NCBI GenBank assembly: GCA_002712305.1
Contig: PATE01000018.1
Span: 9,670-19,605 of the forward strand
Direction: 5' to 3'
Origin: Gemmatimonadota bacterium
GTDB lineage: Bacteria > Latescibacterota > UBA2968 > UBA8231
DNA length: 9,936 bases
How positions within the stretch are numbered: position 1 is the first letter of the stretch; the number at the start of each line of letters is the position of its first letter. The notes under the pieces were generated by a model. The model saw only the letters and a list, made by a program, of their open reading frames with translations. It ran no database searches and had not been told where the DNA came from. The translations under genes were made by a program, and so were the position numbers. This document shows, one piece after another, positions 4,307-9,936 of the stretch.

Positions 4307-4573
4307 TCAGGAACCCTCGCCTTCGGTCGCGGCGGCTTTCACCTGGTTCTCAAGATACCCAACGACGCCTTTCAGAGCATCCAGCCGGGTTGTCGTGGCC
4401 TCTTCATTTAGCTTGAGGCCCTCGAACTCCTCTGCTGAGCCGAGCCGCTTTTCTCGTAGTTCATTAATCTGAGGCTCAATAGCCTGAAGTTTCACTTTCA
4501 AATGCTTCAGGCGCATGGAGGTGCCGTACTTCGTCGCCACCACTGCCAGCGCTGCCAGTATCGTCCAGATCAT
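4307..4573 (-). CDS. Small membrane-anchored coiled-coil protein, function unknown
   Basis: An 88-residue protein I do not recognise as a named family. Residues 2-18 (IWTILAALAVVATKYGT) form a short hydrophobic segment that could be a single TM anchor. The rest is strongly charged and helical: LKHLKVKLQAIEPQINELREKRL (23-45) and a second stretch 58-81 ending GYLENQVKAA show heptad-like hydrophobic spacing. The tail is acidic and Gly-rich. The architecture (N-terminal anchor, cytoplasmic coiled coil) resembles small stress or scaffold proteins such as PspB, but this is an analogy of shape only. It is likely real because a strong promoter lies upstream (4665-4693) and a textbook terminator downstream. 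No Shine-Dalgarno is visible before the ATG. An in-frame TGA four codons upstream fixes the start as the first ATG after it. Confidence 0.75.
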   Translation of the reverse strand: MIWTILAALAVVATKYGTSMRLKHLKVKLQAIEPQINELREKRLGSAEEFEGLKLNEEATTTRLDALKGVVGYLENQVKAAATEGEGS

Positions 4574-4935: not shown

Positions 4936-4991
4936 GAAACGCCTTTCTCGATCCGAATCCCGCCCGGGACGAAGTTCGAGAAGGGCGTTTC
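4936..4991 (+). repeat. Long inverted repeat forming a 15-bp hairpin
   Basis: Arm 4936-4950 (GAAACGCCTTTCTCG) faces arm 4977-4991 (CGAGAAGGGCGTTTC) across 26 bases. Within the loop, TCCC (4958-4961) and GGGA (4966-4969) can form a small inner stem. In plus-strand RNA the one non-Watson-Crick position is a U-G wobble, so all 15 pairs form; in minus-strand RNA it is an A-C mismatch. A weak T-rich stretch follows on the plus strand, and no T tract follows on the minus strand. It lies 62 bases past the stop at 5054, so it might instead stabilise the 3' end of the minus-strand operon mRNA. Confidence 0.5.
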
Positions 4992-5053: not shown

Positions 5054-6232
5054 TCACTTCTTCATCTCAGGGCGGAAGGGCACCAGCGCCGCGTCTTGCG
5101 GCCTGAGTTGGGTCGGCCAAACCGGTGGTTTCTCGTAAGACGAATACGCCACGTCCAGGTGCGGTGTGTCGACAGATACGTGCCCTCGATGGCGGGAGTC
5201 GAGCAATGCCTCGAGAGCACCGCTCACCAGCAGCGTTCTCTCCACGGGATAAACCGCGTTGCCCGTGAGAAACATCTGCTGCGCGTTCAGTGACAGATAG
5301 CTAAAGTGAGGATGCGGATCTCCGTGCAGATAGAATTCCGTGCCCGTCACTTCCCCATCGACCCGCCCTGCATACCCCCAGCCGGAGAGATATCCTCGCA
5401 GCATGAACGTCGCCGTCTGCAGTCCATCTGCGTACTCCATCAGATAGACGGCTGGTGATTCGCACACTTGCCGCGGATCTCCGTCTTCCCGCGATTCGAT
5501 GTGGTGGGCTGCCGCGCCGAACAGATCCTGGGACCACCTGCCCTGTTGTCCCGCCTCCCAGACGGCATCGCCTTCCAGACACTGAACCGAACGGATGCCG
5601 GATTCACCGCCCTTGCGACGTTCGACCATACACTGAAGGGTCTCCAGCGCGTGGAAGCCATAGGAGTCGAGGCCCCCATAGGCGAGCGAGACGGCCTCGG
5701 TGACCGGCGTTTCCAGGTCGTACTCAAGCCCTGGATTGCGATAGGTGACCGGCAGCGACGACCCTGCCATGAACGGGATCTGAAGTTCACGCGCTCTGTC
5801 ATACATCCACTTGGCCGAGTCCCAGTTCCATGCAAGATGTTTGTCGGAAAACACGGGCACCGACCGTCCCGAAGTGGCAAAGACCCCGCAGATCTGCTCG
5901 AAGAAGAATCTCCGTGGATAGAGATGCTGTTCTTTCTCATTCCACGCGTAGTCGCCGTGTTCGCCGATCAGCAGCACACCATCCACGGCCAGGTCATTCG
6001 TGTTCAGGGTTAAGGCCTGAACGATACTCTCGTAGACGGGAATATCGTGCTCCTTGGCCACATCCAACCCGACGTCTCGAGGGCCGACCTGGTCGAGATA
6101 GAACGACACAATTTCAACCTGAGGCTCGACAAGCCCATCGTCGGTCGGGAACCCCTTCAGGAACTTGCCAATGATGACATCGGCGTGGGAAAACGGATAG
6201 TACGTCGTGATGATCGCGGCGATTTTCTTCAT
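5054..6232 (-). CDS. Conserved protein of unnamed family, faintly Gfo/Idh/MocA-like
   Basis: A 392-residue protein with no family name I can assign, though I recall similar uncharacterised proteins in planctomycete-like genomes. Striking motifs are SHAD (15-18), GVLLIGEHGDY (85-95), PVFSDKHLAW (126-135), AGSSLPVT (156-163), FHALETLQCMVERRKGGE (193-210), EGDAVW (220-225) and HGDPHPHFSYL (303-313). The order 'VLLIGEHGD... VFSDKHLA... ARELQIPFMAG' recalls the N-terminal NAD domain of Gfo/Idh dehydrogenases, where an EKP-LA lysine motif is followed by helix and 'vp-mvg'. No Gly-rich nucleotide loop is visible at the N-terminus, so cofactor use is doubtful. The chosen ATG at 6232 lies 14 bases after the isomerase stop. 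The frame is open further up to 6385, but that part lies inside the isomerase gene and looks non-coding. It is last in the sulfatase operon. Confidence 0.8.
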   Translation of the reverse strand: MKKIAAIITTYYPFSHADVIIGKFLKGFPTDDGLVEPQVEIVSFYLDQVGPRDVGLDVAKEHDIPVYESIVQALTLNTNDLAVDGVLLIGEHGDYAWNEKEQHLYPRRFFFEQICGVFATSGRSVPVFSDKHLAWNWDSAKWMYDRARELQIPFMAGSSLPVTYRNPGLEYDLETPVTEAVSLAYGGLDSYGFHALETLQCMVERRKGGESGIRSVQCLEGDAVWEAGQQGRWSQDLFGAAAHHIESREDGDPRQVCESPAVYLMEYADGLQTATFMLRGYLSGWGYAGRVDGEVTGTEFYLHGDPHPHFSYLSLNAQQMFLTGNAVYPVERTLLVSGALEALLDSRHRGHVSVDTPHLDVAYSSYEKPPVWPTQLRPQDAALVPFRPEMKK

Positions 6233-6246
6233 GCTGTCGCTCTTGC

Positions 6247-7116
6247 TTATCCCTTCCACTTTCGCAGCAGGGAGCGCCAGACCGTCTCGATCTCTTCCCG
6301 GGCGCGGCAGGCGTCCTTCCACACGTCGGGGAAACACTCCAGCGCATATCCTGAGCCCTGCGGACCCAGTTCGACAACAGCCCACAGTTCACGGCCCGAG
6401 CGTGCTCCCCGCAGCCACGCCTCCAACACGGGTCGACAGAAATTGTCGCGCCAAGTGACGAAGTCGCCGTCGAGCTTGCCTCGTCCATCGGTGATGGGGG
6501 TCTGACAATGGCTGCCGGTGAAGGTGCGCAGATGGATGAGATCGCTCATTCGCAACAGATCTTTGCGATACAGTAACCGTTTGGCGAAGTCGTGCGGTCG
6601 GACCTGCTTGACGATGGCGGGGTGCGAGTGATCGAAATTCGTGCGTAGCTTCTTGCCATACTTCTTCTCGTACGCCGATGCGAGGGCGAGCCCCTTCTCG
6701 GGTGTCTCGGTACATGTGTCCCGATGCCATTCGATGGCCGGTTGGATTCCACACTTCTCGCCAGCCTTCATCACCGCATGAGCCACAGGCAGGGCTTTGG
6801 CCGTGGGTGTGTCGTGGTCACACAACTGCACGTTCACGTGTATAGCGCCGGCGTCGGCGAAACTCTTCATCTTGGGTAAAGCATCTTTGGCCGCTCCCAC
6901 GTCGACACCGCCAACCAGCGTCAAGCCGTGCTTGTTCACTGCTGCAGCGATGTCGGCTGCAGCTCCCGCGCTGAAGCCATCGAAGCCGGCTTCCTTTGCT
7001 TTGCGCACTTTGGTATCCATCGACCACTGCTTTGCCGCCGATGGGTAGTTGGTAAGAGACCATGCGGCTGCGCACAACCTCAGTTTCGGCTTGATTTTCG
7101 GCTTCTTCCCAGGCAT
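6247..7116 (-). CDS. Sugar phosphate isomerase/epimerase-like TIM barrel (AP endonuclease 2 / xylose isomerase-like fold)
   Basis: A 289-residue protein whose pattern fits the AP-endonuclease-2 TIM barrel enzymes, which isomerise or epimerise sugars and keto-sugars using a divalent metal. The N-terminal strand carries CAAAWSLTNYP (15-25). KEAGFDGFSAG (41-51) is the usual second strand. IEWHRDTCTETPEK (128-141) carries the first metal Glu (E129) and a signature seen in a group of such proteins. NFDHSHPAIVKQ (160-171) offers D162, H163 and H165. IHLRTFTGSHCQTP (194-207) is a further His-rich strand. VVELGPQGSGY (247-257) carries the last Glu (E249). Which of these bind metal is inferred from the fold. 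The first residues are basic, without a signal peptide. The start at 7116 is fixed by AAAGGAG seven bases upstream. It follows fdhD by 29 bases. The substrate is unknown. Confidence 0.82.
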   Translation of the reverse strand: MPGKKPKIKPKLRLCAAAWSLTNYPSAAKQWSMDTKVRKAKEAGFDGFSAGAAADIAAAVNKHGLTLVGGVDVGAAKDALPKMKSFADAGAIHVNVQLCDHDTPTAKALPVAHAVMKAGEKCGIQPAIEWHRDTCTETPEKGLALASAYEKKYGKKLRTNFDHSHPAIVKQVRPHDFAKRLLYRKDLLRMSDLIHLRTFTGSHCQTPITDGRGKLDGDFVTWRDNFCRPVLEAWLRGARSGRELWAVVELGPQGSGYALECFPDVWKDACRAREEIETVWRSLLRKWKG

Positions 7117-7123
7117 CTGATTT

Positions 7124-7130
7124 CTCCTTT
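7124..7130 (-). promoter_or_regulatory. Ribosome binding site deciding the isomerase start
   Basis: The minus strand reads AAAGGAG with a 7-base gap to the ATG at 7116. The reading frame is open as far as 7293, inside fdhD, so this site is what places the start at 7116. Confidence 0.75.
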
Positions 7131-7145
7131 GAATCGGGAAAGGAC

Positions 7146-7970
7146 TCAGTCGAGTCGGTGTGGATGGGTATAGAGATTCGCCGTAGTCCCCCGCAGGAAC
7201 CCAACGAGCGTAATCCCCGCTTCGCGTGCGAGGTCGACGGCGAGGGTCGACGGGCCGGACACGGCGGCGATGAAACAGACACCAGCCATCCACGCCTTTT
7301 GAACGATTTCAAAACTGACACGACCGCTCACCAACAGGACGGACAACTCTGGAGGGCGTTCCCCCTTCAGCACGTAGTGACCTACGAGTTTGTCCATAGC
7401 ATTGTGTCGACCGACGTCCTCGCACAGGTGCAGCAAGTCTCCTGACAGGTCGAATAGTGCGGACGCATGAAGTGCACCGGTTCGTTCGAACTGCGCCTGC
7501 CCCTTGCGCAAGACATCGGACAAGGACCACAGCACCGGACGGGACAGGGTGAACGATCGAGAGATCGGATCAGCCTTCGTACGCAGCTGATCGATACTCG
7601 CCTTGCCACAGACTCCACAACTCGAGGTCGCATAGAAATTGCGCCGGAGTCGATCGACGTCGACTTCACAGGTGAGCCTGGCCTCGACAACATTCTGTTC
7701 GTTCGGCGGTTCGGCCGTGGCGCAATATCCGAGGGTTCCCAAGTCCTTCGGGGAGGGCAGCACGCCCTCGGTGAGAAGGAAACCCGCCGCCAGAGCAAGA
7801 TCGTCACCCGGTGTGCGCATGAGGACGGCGATCGCCTCATCCTGCAGACGGATCTCCAAGGGCCCTTCGACAGTGATATCATCATCGCGGGGCATCGCCA
7901 CGTCATTGCCCGCATCGAGCCGATGGATTTCACGCCGATCCACACTTCGATCTGCTAAACGATCAGACAT
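7146..7970 (-). CDS. fdhD: Formate dehydrogenase accessory sulfurtransferase FdhD
   Basis: A 274-residue, full-length FdhD. In studied bacteria FdhD takes sulfur from the cysteine desulfurase IscS and hands it to the molybdenum bis-MGD cofactor, activating formate dehydrogenases; it works in the cytoplasm. The sequence shows PLEIRLQDEAIAVLMRTPGD and LAAGFLLTEGVL (59-71), typical of the N-terminal half. The sulfur-carrying motif is SSCGVCGKASI, with Cys118 and Cys121 matching the essential CxxC of the family. HLCEDVGRHNAMDKLVG, LLVSGRVSFEIVQKA, AVSGPSTLAVDLA and the closing TLVGFLRG follow in the usual order. The start at 7970 is preceded by GGTGAG eight bases upstream and lies 18 bases after the sulfatase stop. 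It is in an operon with a sulfatase and a sugar isomerase and no formate dehydrogenase is present in the window, which is odd. The identification is certain from motifs. Confidence 0.96.
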   Translation of the reverse strand: MSDRLADRSVDRREIHRLDAGNDVAMPRDDDITVEGPLEIRLQDEAIAVLMRTPGDDLALAAGFLLTEGVLPSPKDLGTLGYCATAEPPNEQNVVEARLTCEVDVDRLRRNFYATSSCGVCGKASIDQLRTKADPISRSFTLSRPVLWSLSDVLRKGQAQFERTGALHASALFDLSGDLLHLCEDVGRHNAMDKLVGHYVLKGERPPELSVLLVSGRVSFEIVQKAWMAGVCFIAAVSGPSTLAVDLAREAGITLVGFLRGTTANLYTHPHRLD

Positions 7971-7988
7971 GAAGTGAACTCACCGGCA

Positions 7989-9503
7989 CTACATCGGCCC
8001 CACGCGCCGTGGCCCGCGATCCATGGCCAGCATGGACGCATCGAAGCTGCGGCGCAGCAGATCGAGTCTCGTCTCGAGGTAGTCAGAATTGTGCCAGAGA
8101 TTCTGGAACTCATGTGGATCTTCGTGAAGATCATAGAGTTCGCCCTCTGACTTGCCGTGGTAGACGACCAGCTTGTAGCGCCGATCGCGCCACATGGTCG
8201 CAAAAGAGTTGTCAGGTTCATCGAGAGCGTCGTAGTACTCGCAGCGAACGTGATCACGATGGGGCGACGCCACCTGTTCGGCCAGCCTCTTTGCCAGAGA
8301 ACGGCCCTGCATGTGGTGCGGCATGTCTATACCGGCGAGATCTAGCAAAGTGGGCGCAAGATCCGTCAACTCCACGAGACTATCGTCGACGATCCCCTCC
8401 CGCACTCGGCCCGGAGCACGGAAGATGAGGGGTACTCTGACAAGGCCCTCGTAAAAGCGACAACCCTTTGCGATCAGACCGTGGTCGCCCAGCGTCTCTC
8501 CATGATCGCTGGTGAAGATGACGACCGTGTTTTCACGTTGGCCGGTTTCGTCCAGACAGTTGAGCATACTCGCAAGGCTATCGTCGATGAGCTTGATCAT
8601 CGCATAGTAGGCTGCCTGAAGGGTCTTGGCATCGCGACGCTGTGAGATCGGGTCTGCCAACTCTTCAACTTCCTGTTCGCCTCCTCCCAGACGGGGGCTG
8701 GCTGGGGCGACGGGATGTTTGATATCCAGCATCTCGGGCGTACGAGCACGAGACTGAAAGTCCACGCCTTCTGCTTCCAGTCGGCCTTGTTGTTCCAGAT
8801 CTGACGCCTTGAACAACGGTCCCGGCATCTGTTCCGGATCGAAGAGCTTACGATAGGCGGCGGGTGGATTGAAGGGCGGATGGGGGTCGTAGACGTTAAC
8901 ACTGAGGAGCCAGGGTTGCCCACCCATTCTCTCCGTCATGAACTGGTTGGCCATCTCAGCGCACCACGTTGTCTGGTGCAGATCTGTGGGAACGCCCTGA
9001 CTGTAGGGGGTGAGTTCACCTAGCACGGCCCCTTTCTCGCGCACCCAGTCAGCGTAGTCGTGCCCGTGCTGCCAGTCGTCTCTCGGCGCGTGGCTGTACT
9101 TCCAGTGGTTGTATCCATCGTTCGTGCGGGGCTCAACGCGACCGAAGGCACTGGCAAGATGCAGCTTGCCCACCAGACCACAGTCGTACCCAGCGTCAGC
9201 GAGCAGGCGCGTCACCAGAGGTGGTGCATCATCGGGGAAATGATCATTGCCATTACCCATGACATGCACGGCACTCGGATACATGCCCGTGAGAAAACTG
9301 GCCCGACTGGGCGTGCAGATCGGGCTCTGACAGTAGGCGTGCGTGAACGCTGTCCCTGTAGCGACCAGTTCGTCGATGACGGGTGTCGACACGTGGCGGT
9401 TGCCGAGGGCACCAATCGTGTCGTATCGCTGCTGGTCGGTGCAGACCCAGAGAATGTTGGGCGGCTGCGTCGACGCCAAGGGGTTCGTCCGATCTATAAA
9501 CAT
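7989..9503 (-). CDS. Type I sulfatase (formylglycine-dependent sulfatase/phosphonate-ester hydrolase family)
   Basis: A 504-residue sulfatase of the alkaline-phosphatase superfamily. NILWVCTDQQRYDT carries the metal-binding D23 and Q24. SPICTPSRASFLTG holds the signature C-x-P-S-R: Cys63 would become formylglycine, the catalytic nucleophile, and T72-G73 completes the motif. LVGKLHLA places K113 and H115, DPHPPF lies at 206-211, and FTSDHGETLGDHG places D333 and H334, followed by AKG (K346). The Asp-His pair instead of Asp-Asn is shared with the choline-sulfatase and phosphonate monoesterase branches, so substrate is uncertain. No signal peptide is seen, so it may be cytoplasmic, unlike most scavenging sulfatases. 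The start at 9503 is an ATG without an obvious Shine-Dalgarno; the frame is open up to 9623 but that would run into the divergent gene. The activating enzyme is not in the window. It heads the four-gene operon. Confidence 0.93.
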   Translation of the reverse strand: MFIDRTNPLASTQPPNILWVCTDQQRYDTIGALGNRHVSTPVIDELVATGTAFTHAYCQSPICTPSRASFLTGMYPSAVHVMGNGNDHFPDDAPPLVTRLLADAGYDCGLVGKLHLASAFGRVEPRTNDGYNHWKYSHAPRDDWQHGHDYADWVREKGAVLGELTPYSQGVPTDLHQTTWCAEMANQFMTERMGGQPWLLSVNVYDPHPPFNPPAAYRKLFDPEQMPGPLFKASDLEQQGRLEAEGVDFQSRARTPEMLDIKHPVAPASPRLGGGEQEVEELADPISQRRDAKTLQAAYYAMIKLIDDSLASMLNCLDETGQRENTVVIFTSDHGETLGDHGLIAKGCRFYEGLVRVPLIFRAPGRVREGIVDDSLVELTDLAPTLLDLAGIDMPHHMQGRSLAKRLAEQVASPHRDHVRCEYYDALDEPDNSFATMWRDRRYKLVVYHGKSEGELYDLHEDPHEFQNLWHNSDYLETRLDLLRRSFDASMLAMDRGPRRVGPM

Positions 9504-9554: not shown

Positions 9555-9601
9555 CCATTTCGACGGCCCCCATACCCCTCCAACAAGACGCAACTGGCTG
9601 C

Positions 9602-9936
9602 ATGAATCGTTTCCTCGACGCATTGGGCGCAGGCCCCCTGCTCGCCGATGGCGCCATGGGTTCTTACATCTTCGAACTCACGGGGAGACTGTCGGAACCG
9701 AACCATGTGTACGAGTCCTTCAGCCTCGATCGGCCCGAAGTCATCCGCGACGTCTATCTCGGATATCTGCGCGCGGGAAGTCGCTGTCTGACCACAAATA
9801 CCTTCGCCGCCAACGCCGACTGCCTCGCTGTCGATGGGCTGGCCGAGCGACTTGTCGACTTGAACCGTGCTGCCATCGACGTCGCCCGTGAGGCGGCCGA
9901 GCAGTATCGGGCCAGTGAGGGCGGTGAGGAAATCTT
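9602..9936 (+). CDS. Homocysteine S-methyltransferase family protein (3' end cut by window)
   Basis: The first 111 codons of a gene that runs off the window. It is the only plus-strand gene. LLADGAMGSYIFE (13-25) matches the start of the homocysteine S-methyltransferase domain, where DGAMGT is usual. LTTNTFAAN (63-71) is the second signature of the barrel. Such enzymes move a methyl group to homocysteine to form methionine, with a zinc ion bound by cysteines that would lie further on, beyond the window. The full gene could be a single-domain enzyme, a MetH-like methionine synthase or a fusion with methylenetetrahydrofolate reductase; the part seen cannot tell. The ATG at 9602 is chosen because the domain normally begins about 15 residues before its first motif. 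No Shine-Dalgarno is visible. It is divergent from the sulfatase operon, with 98 bases between the starts. Confidence 0.88.
   Translation, partial: MNRFLDALGAGPLLADGAMGSYIFELTGRLSEPNHVYESFSLDRPEVIRDVYLGYLRAGSRCLTTNTFAANADCLAVDGLAERLVDLNRAAIDVAREAAEQYRASEGGEEI

Follow-up and report, generated by a model that had tools for sequence, protein, structure and literature searches.

A sulfatase-FdhD-TIM-barrel gene cluster in a Latescibacterota genome and a possible tie between the barrel protein and formate dehydrogenase

Introduction

Known FdhD proteins mature the cofactor of their clients, and a CXXC motif marks FdhD groups I and II, some members of the family being without it (PMC6239281). Here we describe a stretch of 9,936 nucleotides (the window: positions 9,670 to 19,605 of contig PATE01000018.1, assembly GCA_002712305.1, deposited as Gemmatimonadota bacterium and placed in Latescibacterota by GTDB; G000:C39:9670-19605 in our numbering) in which the gene for FdhD, a formate dehydrogenase accessory sulfurtransferase/chaperone, lies between genes for a sulfatase (S) and a TIM-barrel protein (T), with the gene of an unnamed protein (X) following. 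The draft genome behind the window comprises 4.77 Mb in 146 contigs and is 90.9% complete. Compared with FdhD/NarQ/FdsC chaperones such as E. coli FdhD, the protein is alike in its equivalog-level match, its CXXC motif, its single copy and the presence of a formate dehydrogenase in the genome. However, its gene sits between the sulfatase and TIM-barrel genes and not by fdhA, and the formate dehydrogenase is encoded on another contig. We argue that this FdhD most likely serves that distant enzyme, and that its company with T may be metabolic.

In bacteria that use algal methoxy-sugars, formaldehyde is a by-product of demethylation, and this provides a precedent for the release of a one-carbon (C1) unit from algal sugars; the dehydrogenase studied in that context had no role in formaldehyde detoxification (PMC10033563). 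Our literature search found no paper that joins Latescibacteria, sulfatase and formate dehydrogenase, and none on Verrucomicrobia that connects formate dehydrogenase with a gene cluster and xylose-isomerase-like genes.

Results and Discussion

The four genes are arranged on the minus strand in the order S (7989..9503, in an open reading frame (ORF) open up to 9623), FdhD (7146..7970), T (6247..7116) and X (5054..6232, with an ATG at 6232), with gaps of 18, 29 and 14 bases. All four ORFs and the gaps given in a preliminary description of this DNA were reproduced, and the genes are presumably co-transcribed; a promoter scan of the window gave no signal above chance. The preliminary description had also proposed to check whether the order is conserved. 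The genomes used for this comparison are drafts, some of them incomplete; we label families f1 to f4 and genera g1 to g7, and in f3 and f4 many FdhD and T loci were placed by position only, and a minority of the f3 FdhD loci was read. The order S-FdhD-T-X is intact in the sole relative of the same genus (G001), with an overlap of up to 10 bases between the frames of T and X. Two further genomes of the same family keep part of it at contig ends, FdhD-T-X in G012 and T-X in G005. Because of this intact and partial conservation, the four-gene arrangement is more than chance.

The members of the cluster differ in how faithfully they stay together. Genera g6 and g7 have S-FdhD-T, the g4 loci read have FdhD-T without S, and those read in g5 likewise have no S beside FdhD. 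In f1, a distance of 33-1652 bp separates FdhD from T in each of the 16 genomes that carry both on one contig. The corresponding count for the sister family f3 is 0 of 11; in the f3 loci read S adjoins T and the cassette has no FdhD. The S-T pair is old, and the durable link is that of T with FdhD, not of the sulfatase with FdhD.

This link recurs beyond Latescibacterota. Relatives of T from Verrucomicrobiota are about 40-45% identical to the window protein and have FdhD within 9 kb in 15 loci, in several gene orders: a HIBADH-like gene, T, fdhB, fdhA and FdhD in L227; a HIBADH-like gene, T, an FdhF/YdeP-type oxidoreductase and FdhD in L229 and L261, with L262 alike by tblastn. In nine Roseibacillus/Akkermansiaceae loci about 150-200 bp separate T from FdhD. 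On the T tree, the label "FdhD-linked" needs at least 7 changes, and the linkage has therefore been gained or lost repeatedly. A joint transfer of T and FdhD across phyla was considered and not adopted, the FdhD tree being undecided on this point, with long branches and no outside rows.

Co-occurrence was also analyzed independently of gene order. In an even draw of 106 Verrucomicrobiota genomes, 7 contained T and 17 contained FdhD, and none of the 7 T-bearing genomes was without FdhD. After removal of the seed genome, whose T-FdhD linkage was the reason for its choice, FdhD was present in 6/6 T-bearing genomes versus 10/99 T-less ones (one-sided Fisher test, 5e-6, a value that ignores relatedness). 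We further searched, regardless of adjacency, 36 T-bearing genomes that had mainly been chosen because FdhD was unseen near T. FdhD was found in 27 of them, including 3/3 Poribacteria and 11/11 Opitutales, the latter combining a closer form of T with a non-adjacent FdhD.

FdhD of the window exceeds the NCBIfam equivalog cut-offs (NF001943, 288.4 bits versus 269; TIGR00129, 161 versus 140.9), matches PF02634 at E 5.4e-65, is encoded once in the genome and contains a CGVC motif within SSCGVCGKAS, which has the CXXC form of groups I and II. Earlier it had been asked whether this protein serves an oxidoreductase not seen in the window. The likely answer is a formate dehydrogenase alpha subunit on contig C6 (C6:56467-59331; TIGR01591, 821.6 bits versus a cut-off of 666.25), which has Cys at the selenocysteine (Sec) position and a NuoEF-like subunit alongside; relatives with fdhA-fdhB beside the cassette point the same way. 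It is the only strong PF00384 match in the genome. The remaining matches, at E 5.8e-6 and 8.5e-6, are weak and, as read from translations, appear to sit among NADH-dehydrogenase-like and respiratory (cytochrome-oxidase-type) genes. Judging from these sequence matches, FdhD most likely matures the bis-molybdopterin guanine dinucleotide (bis-MGD) cofactor of the C6 enzyme in trans. A few kb from the genome's own formate dehydrogenase, PhyH-type dioxygenase-like and amidohydrolase-like genes were recognized by eye (L062:4954-6642, minus strand).

In two relatives (G006, G007) T and X are separated by a convergent fdhA-fdhB pair, with X just past fdhB, and fdhA has an in-frame TGA exactly at the formate dehydrogenase selenocysteine position. 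A fdhA(Sec)-fdhB pair also faces FdhD-T in G004, G011, G014 and G017. X directly follows T only in G000, G001, G005 and G012, that is, in genera g1 and g5, and is mostly located away from T. In the window's genome and the g1/g5 relatives read, no fdhA-fdhB pair lies beside the cassette, and the formate dehydrogenase that comes closest is of the Cys type and is encoded elsewhere; G012 has an additional, distant formate dehydrogenase-like gene. Since X abuts T only where the Sec fdhA-fdhB pair is absent, gene order suggests that X joined as a later or secondary neighbor. A loss of the selenocysteine machinery was rejected as the cause of the Sec enzyme's disappearance: a SelB match over the cut-off persists in the window's genome, and the change is therefore not due to loss of selenocysteine decoding. 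As a separate observation, an in-frame TGA at the selenocysteine position, within NCSRA*HAPTVAGL, interrupts the formate dehydrogenase alpha genes at L042:5787-8489 and L043:5077-7812 (minus), and most relatives searched have a formate dehydrogenase match with one TGA.

T belongs to no Pfam or NCBIfam family, and for the window protein no Pfam family emerges even at E 10. Its AlphaFold2 model, built from 50 relatives, reached a predicted local distance difference test score (pLDDT) of 92.9 and a predicted template modeling score (pTM) of 0.90. The best matches in the PDB were Art22 (Z 22.2), IolE (3cny, Z 20.6), and DgpB/C and the D-tagatose/D-allulose 3-epimerases (Z about 20); the structural matches have Z 19-22 across about 235-245 residues at 9-17% identity. 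On account of this modeled fold, and not of a sequence model, we confidently assign T to the xylose-isomerase-like TIM barrel superfamily, which supports the earlier designation as a sugar-isomerase barrel. Residues E129, D162, H195 and E249 are invariant in 50/50 alignment rows and lie at or near the ends of strands 5-8 (DSSP of the model). We take E-D-H-E at strands 5, 6, 7 and 8 to be the metal ligand positions of known epimerases, and T is thus predicted to be metal-dependent. While T shares the fold and the invariant E-D-H-E with these barrels, it differs from them in the missing Pfam/NCBIfam family and in its recurrent FdhD and formate dehydrogenase neighbors. The pairing of verrucomicrobial T with a 2-hydroxy-3-oxopropionate-reductase-like gene recalls hyi-glxR of the E. 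coli gcl-hyi-glxR glyoxylate operon. However, the verrucomicrobial reductase-like gene is under the equivalog cut-off and no gcl was identified, and in Latescibacterota no such reductase-like gene was identified beside T.

Other neighbors of T family genes were noted. A single ORF of 811 residues with Alginate_lyase and Amidase domains (L166:432-2867, minus) adjoins a second T paralogue (39% identity) of its genome. Opitutales and another verrucomicrobial genome encode DUF455/ferritin-like proteins close to T (L204:5249-6583; L209:5533-6852, a by-eye assignment based on its resemblance to L204; L253:9919-11367, under the Pfam cut-off).

Our favored explanation, in which we place about even confidence, is that of a real operon whose FdhD serves the C6 formate dehydrogenase in trans and stays with T since a product of the T pathway is formate or a C1 unit that formate dehydrogenase must oxidize. 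The operon would be of a catabolic type, with its parts joined stepwise. S and T would form the old pair, and in f1 FdhD lies between the two or at their side, adjoining a fdhA-fdhB locus. In the window's own lineage the Sec fdhA-fdhB pair would then have vanished from between T and X, leaving FdhD and X behind and X abutting T; loss of the pair seems the simplest order of events. What remains is the Cys-type formate dehydrogenase, whose locus is not linked to the cassette and whose bis-MGD cofactor would be matured by FdhD in trans. S would remove a sulfate ester in the cytoplasm, T would isomerize, epimerize or cleave the carbon skeleton with the help of a divalent metal, and the formate set free would be oxidized by formate dehydrogenase with NAD. 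FdhD repeatedly accompanies T, and this suggests a T pathway that feeds formate dehydrogenase. There are hints of formate as its product, and we infer the target of FdhD and the order of events.

Several points weigh against this explanation. To our knowledge, no formate-yielding reaction has been described for the xylose-isomerase-like fold family, and no transporter or kinase defines the substrate. Neither f3 nor Opitutales show the T-FdhD linkage, and the Fisher value (5e-6) disregards the kinship of the genomes. Nine of the 36 further T-bearing genomes are without FdhD, some of them small, perhaps incomplete assemblies; eight of the nine belong to the verrucomicrobial branch of the T tree, in which the ninth, L238, was not included. 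The arrangement in f1 may be a single inherited event. In the FdhD tree the f1/f2 lineage is distinct from that of f3/f4, and the order of events is therefore uncertain. Finally, a second formate dehydrogenase could be absent from the draft assembly, given its completeness and its number of contigs.

The best-surviving alternative, which we consider possible but rather unlikely, sees FdhD as a passenger, trapped between S and T by a rearrangement that took place beside a formate dehydrogenase locus, and serving formate dehydrogenase without any metabolic tie to T. It agrees with the f3 cassettes, which are S-T without FdhD, and with the loci in which FdhD directly follows fdhA and ends a fdhB-fdhA-fdhD operon (L162 and L163 in f3, L164 and L169 in f4), although a third f3 FdhD locus (L161) has no fdhA within the stretch read. 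The T-less f1 genome G003 fits as well: fdhB, fdhA (with no in-frame stop) and FdhD follow each other there (L264:4056-10426), FdhD thus sitting with its enzyme where T is absent. One event could also account for the whole f1 linkage. However, a passenger would not be expected to recur beside T in Verrucomicrobiota in other gene orders, to be predicted by T even when unlinked, or to be kept beside T without S, as in g4 and g5.

A more far-reaching version of our favored explanation, which we regard as doubtful, is that T founds an uncharacterized family of metal-dependent barrels. Its own or the next step would release formate, with FdhD and formate dehydrogenase as the usual partners in Latescibacterota and Verrucomicrobiota, and this would amount to a new formate-yielding route for carbohydrates or organosulfates. 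Should the T-FdhD tie be metabolic, an unrecognized source of formate in uncultured bacteria would be at hand. The locus offers a functional lead for two nameless protein families (T and X) and an explanation for an apparently misplaced FdhD, and illustrates how an operon-like order can arise once an intervening formate dehydrogenase pair disappears.

It seems improbable that all four genes constitute one sulfated-sugar pathway, in which S desulfates, X oxidizes and T isomerizes or cleaves, as in 3-keto-sugar routes. The S-T pairing, which spans two families, speaks for it. S itself is an S1-type sulfatase of the alkaline-phosphatase superfamily by its sequence, with Pfam matches to PF00884 (E 1.4e-46, above the cut-off) and PF16347 (E 5.4e-28), an SGSH_C-type C-terminus and a CTPSR formylglycine motif (C-x-P-S-R) that is also present in the 5 relatives examined. 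S is probably cytoplasmic, since no signal peptide is evident. While it resembles other S1 sulfatases (arylsulfatase, PehA and choline-sulfatase models) in PF00884 and CTPSR, this probable location sets it apart, as do its scores, far under every named NCBIfam sulfatase equivalog cut-off, at little over half of these or less. A choline-sulfate pathway was rejected (204.1 bits versus the TIGR03417 choline-sulfatase cut-off of 433.45). Ten FGE-sulfatase (PF03781) matches were found in the genome, and these proteins could mature S.

A pairing of a Gfo/Idh protein with a xylose-isomerase-like barrel would also match that of DgpA with DgpB/C, both of which are among the fold matches, and the preliminary description had already suspected that X is Gfo/Idh-like. 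The fold matches listed for X (Foldseek/VIA) are Gfo/Idh-type oxidoreductases, with Z scores reaching 15 across about 145 residues, from a weak model (pLDDT 54.3, 5 alignment rows), and X may be a divergent member of the Gfo/Idh/MocA fold as modeled. Unlike in these oxidoreductases, the X alignment (A4) has DKH at 130-132 in the place of EKP and no GxGxxG, the dinucleotide loop reading AAIITTYYPFSHAD; X has no family in Pfam or NCBIfam and no significant Pfam match. A conventional Gfo/Idh enzyme was rejected on account of the missing motifs, a profile match to PDB 6z3b of only E 0.019 and a profile-profile comparison with two proteins of the same phylum read as Gfo/Idh, which was not significant. 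The X family is large, with 14 matches in the window's genome and 20 in G001. It occurs in 51 of 100 genomes searched, none of them outside the phylum; internal stop codons in some matches are taken as alignment past gene ends. A missing glycine-rich NAD loop, the weak model and the many X genes away from T all argue against one four-gene pathway. Of the earlier sulfated-sugar proposal, the old S-T pair and the sugar-isomerase-type barrel stand. The fixed four-gene pathway does not: X is part of the cluster only in g1/g5, S is missing by FdhD in the g4/g5 loci read, and FdhD is off the cassette in f3. The sulfated-sugar idea is partly supported; it fits the S-T pair and the published picture of Latescibacteria as bacteria that break down sulfated algal polymers (PMC4454575).

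It is very unlikely that FdhD activates a pathway-specific molybdenum oxidoreductase, distinct from formate dehydrogenase, that acts on the T substrate, as might be suggested by the FdhF/YdeP-family enzymes (TIGR01701 above cut-off) that separate T from FdhD in L229 and L261 and adjoin T in L233, since the only strong PF00384 match of the window's genome is the TIGR01591 formate dehydrogenase.

Other features of the window mark the probable borders of the operon. Upstream, the start of a divergent homocysteine S-methyltransferase-type gene (9590..9934, plus strand; PF02574, E 4.9e-18; the rest is cut by the window end) forms the border, and the same neighbor is present in G001, G012 and G015 and farther off in others. 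Just 3' of X, an inverted repeat (4936..4991, no strand; 27-nt arms, 78% complementary, 2-nt loop, no T run scored) is a candidate for the end of the transcription unit; the terminator scan did not pick it up. Also 3' of X lies a small ORF of 88 residues (4307-4573, minus strand), with 69% identity in G001 and 45% in G007. Beyond it follow methyltransferase, flippase-like and TPR genes, whose order is the same in relatives.

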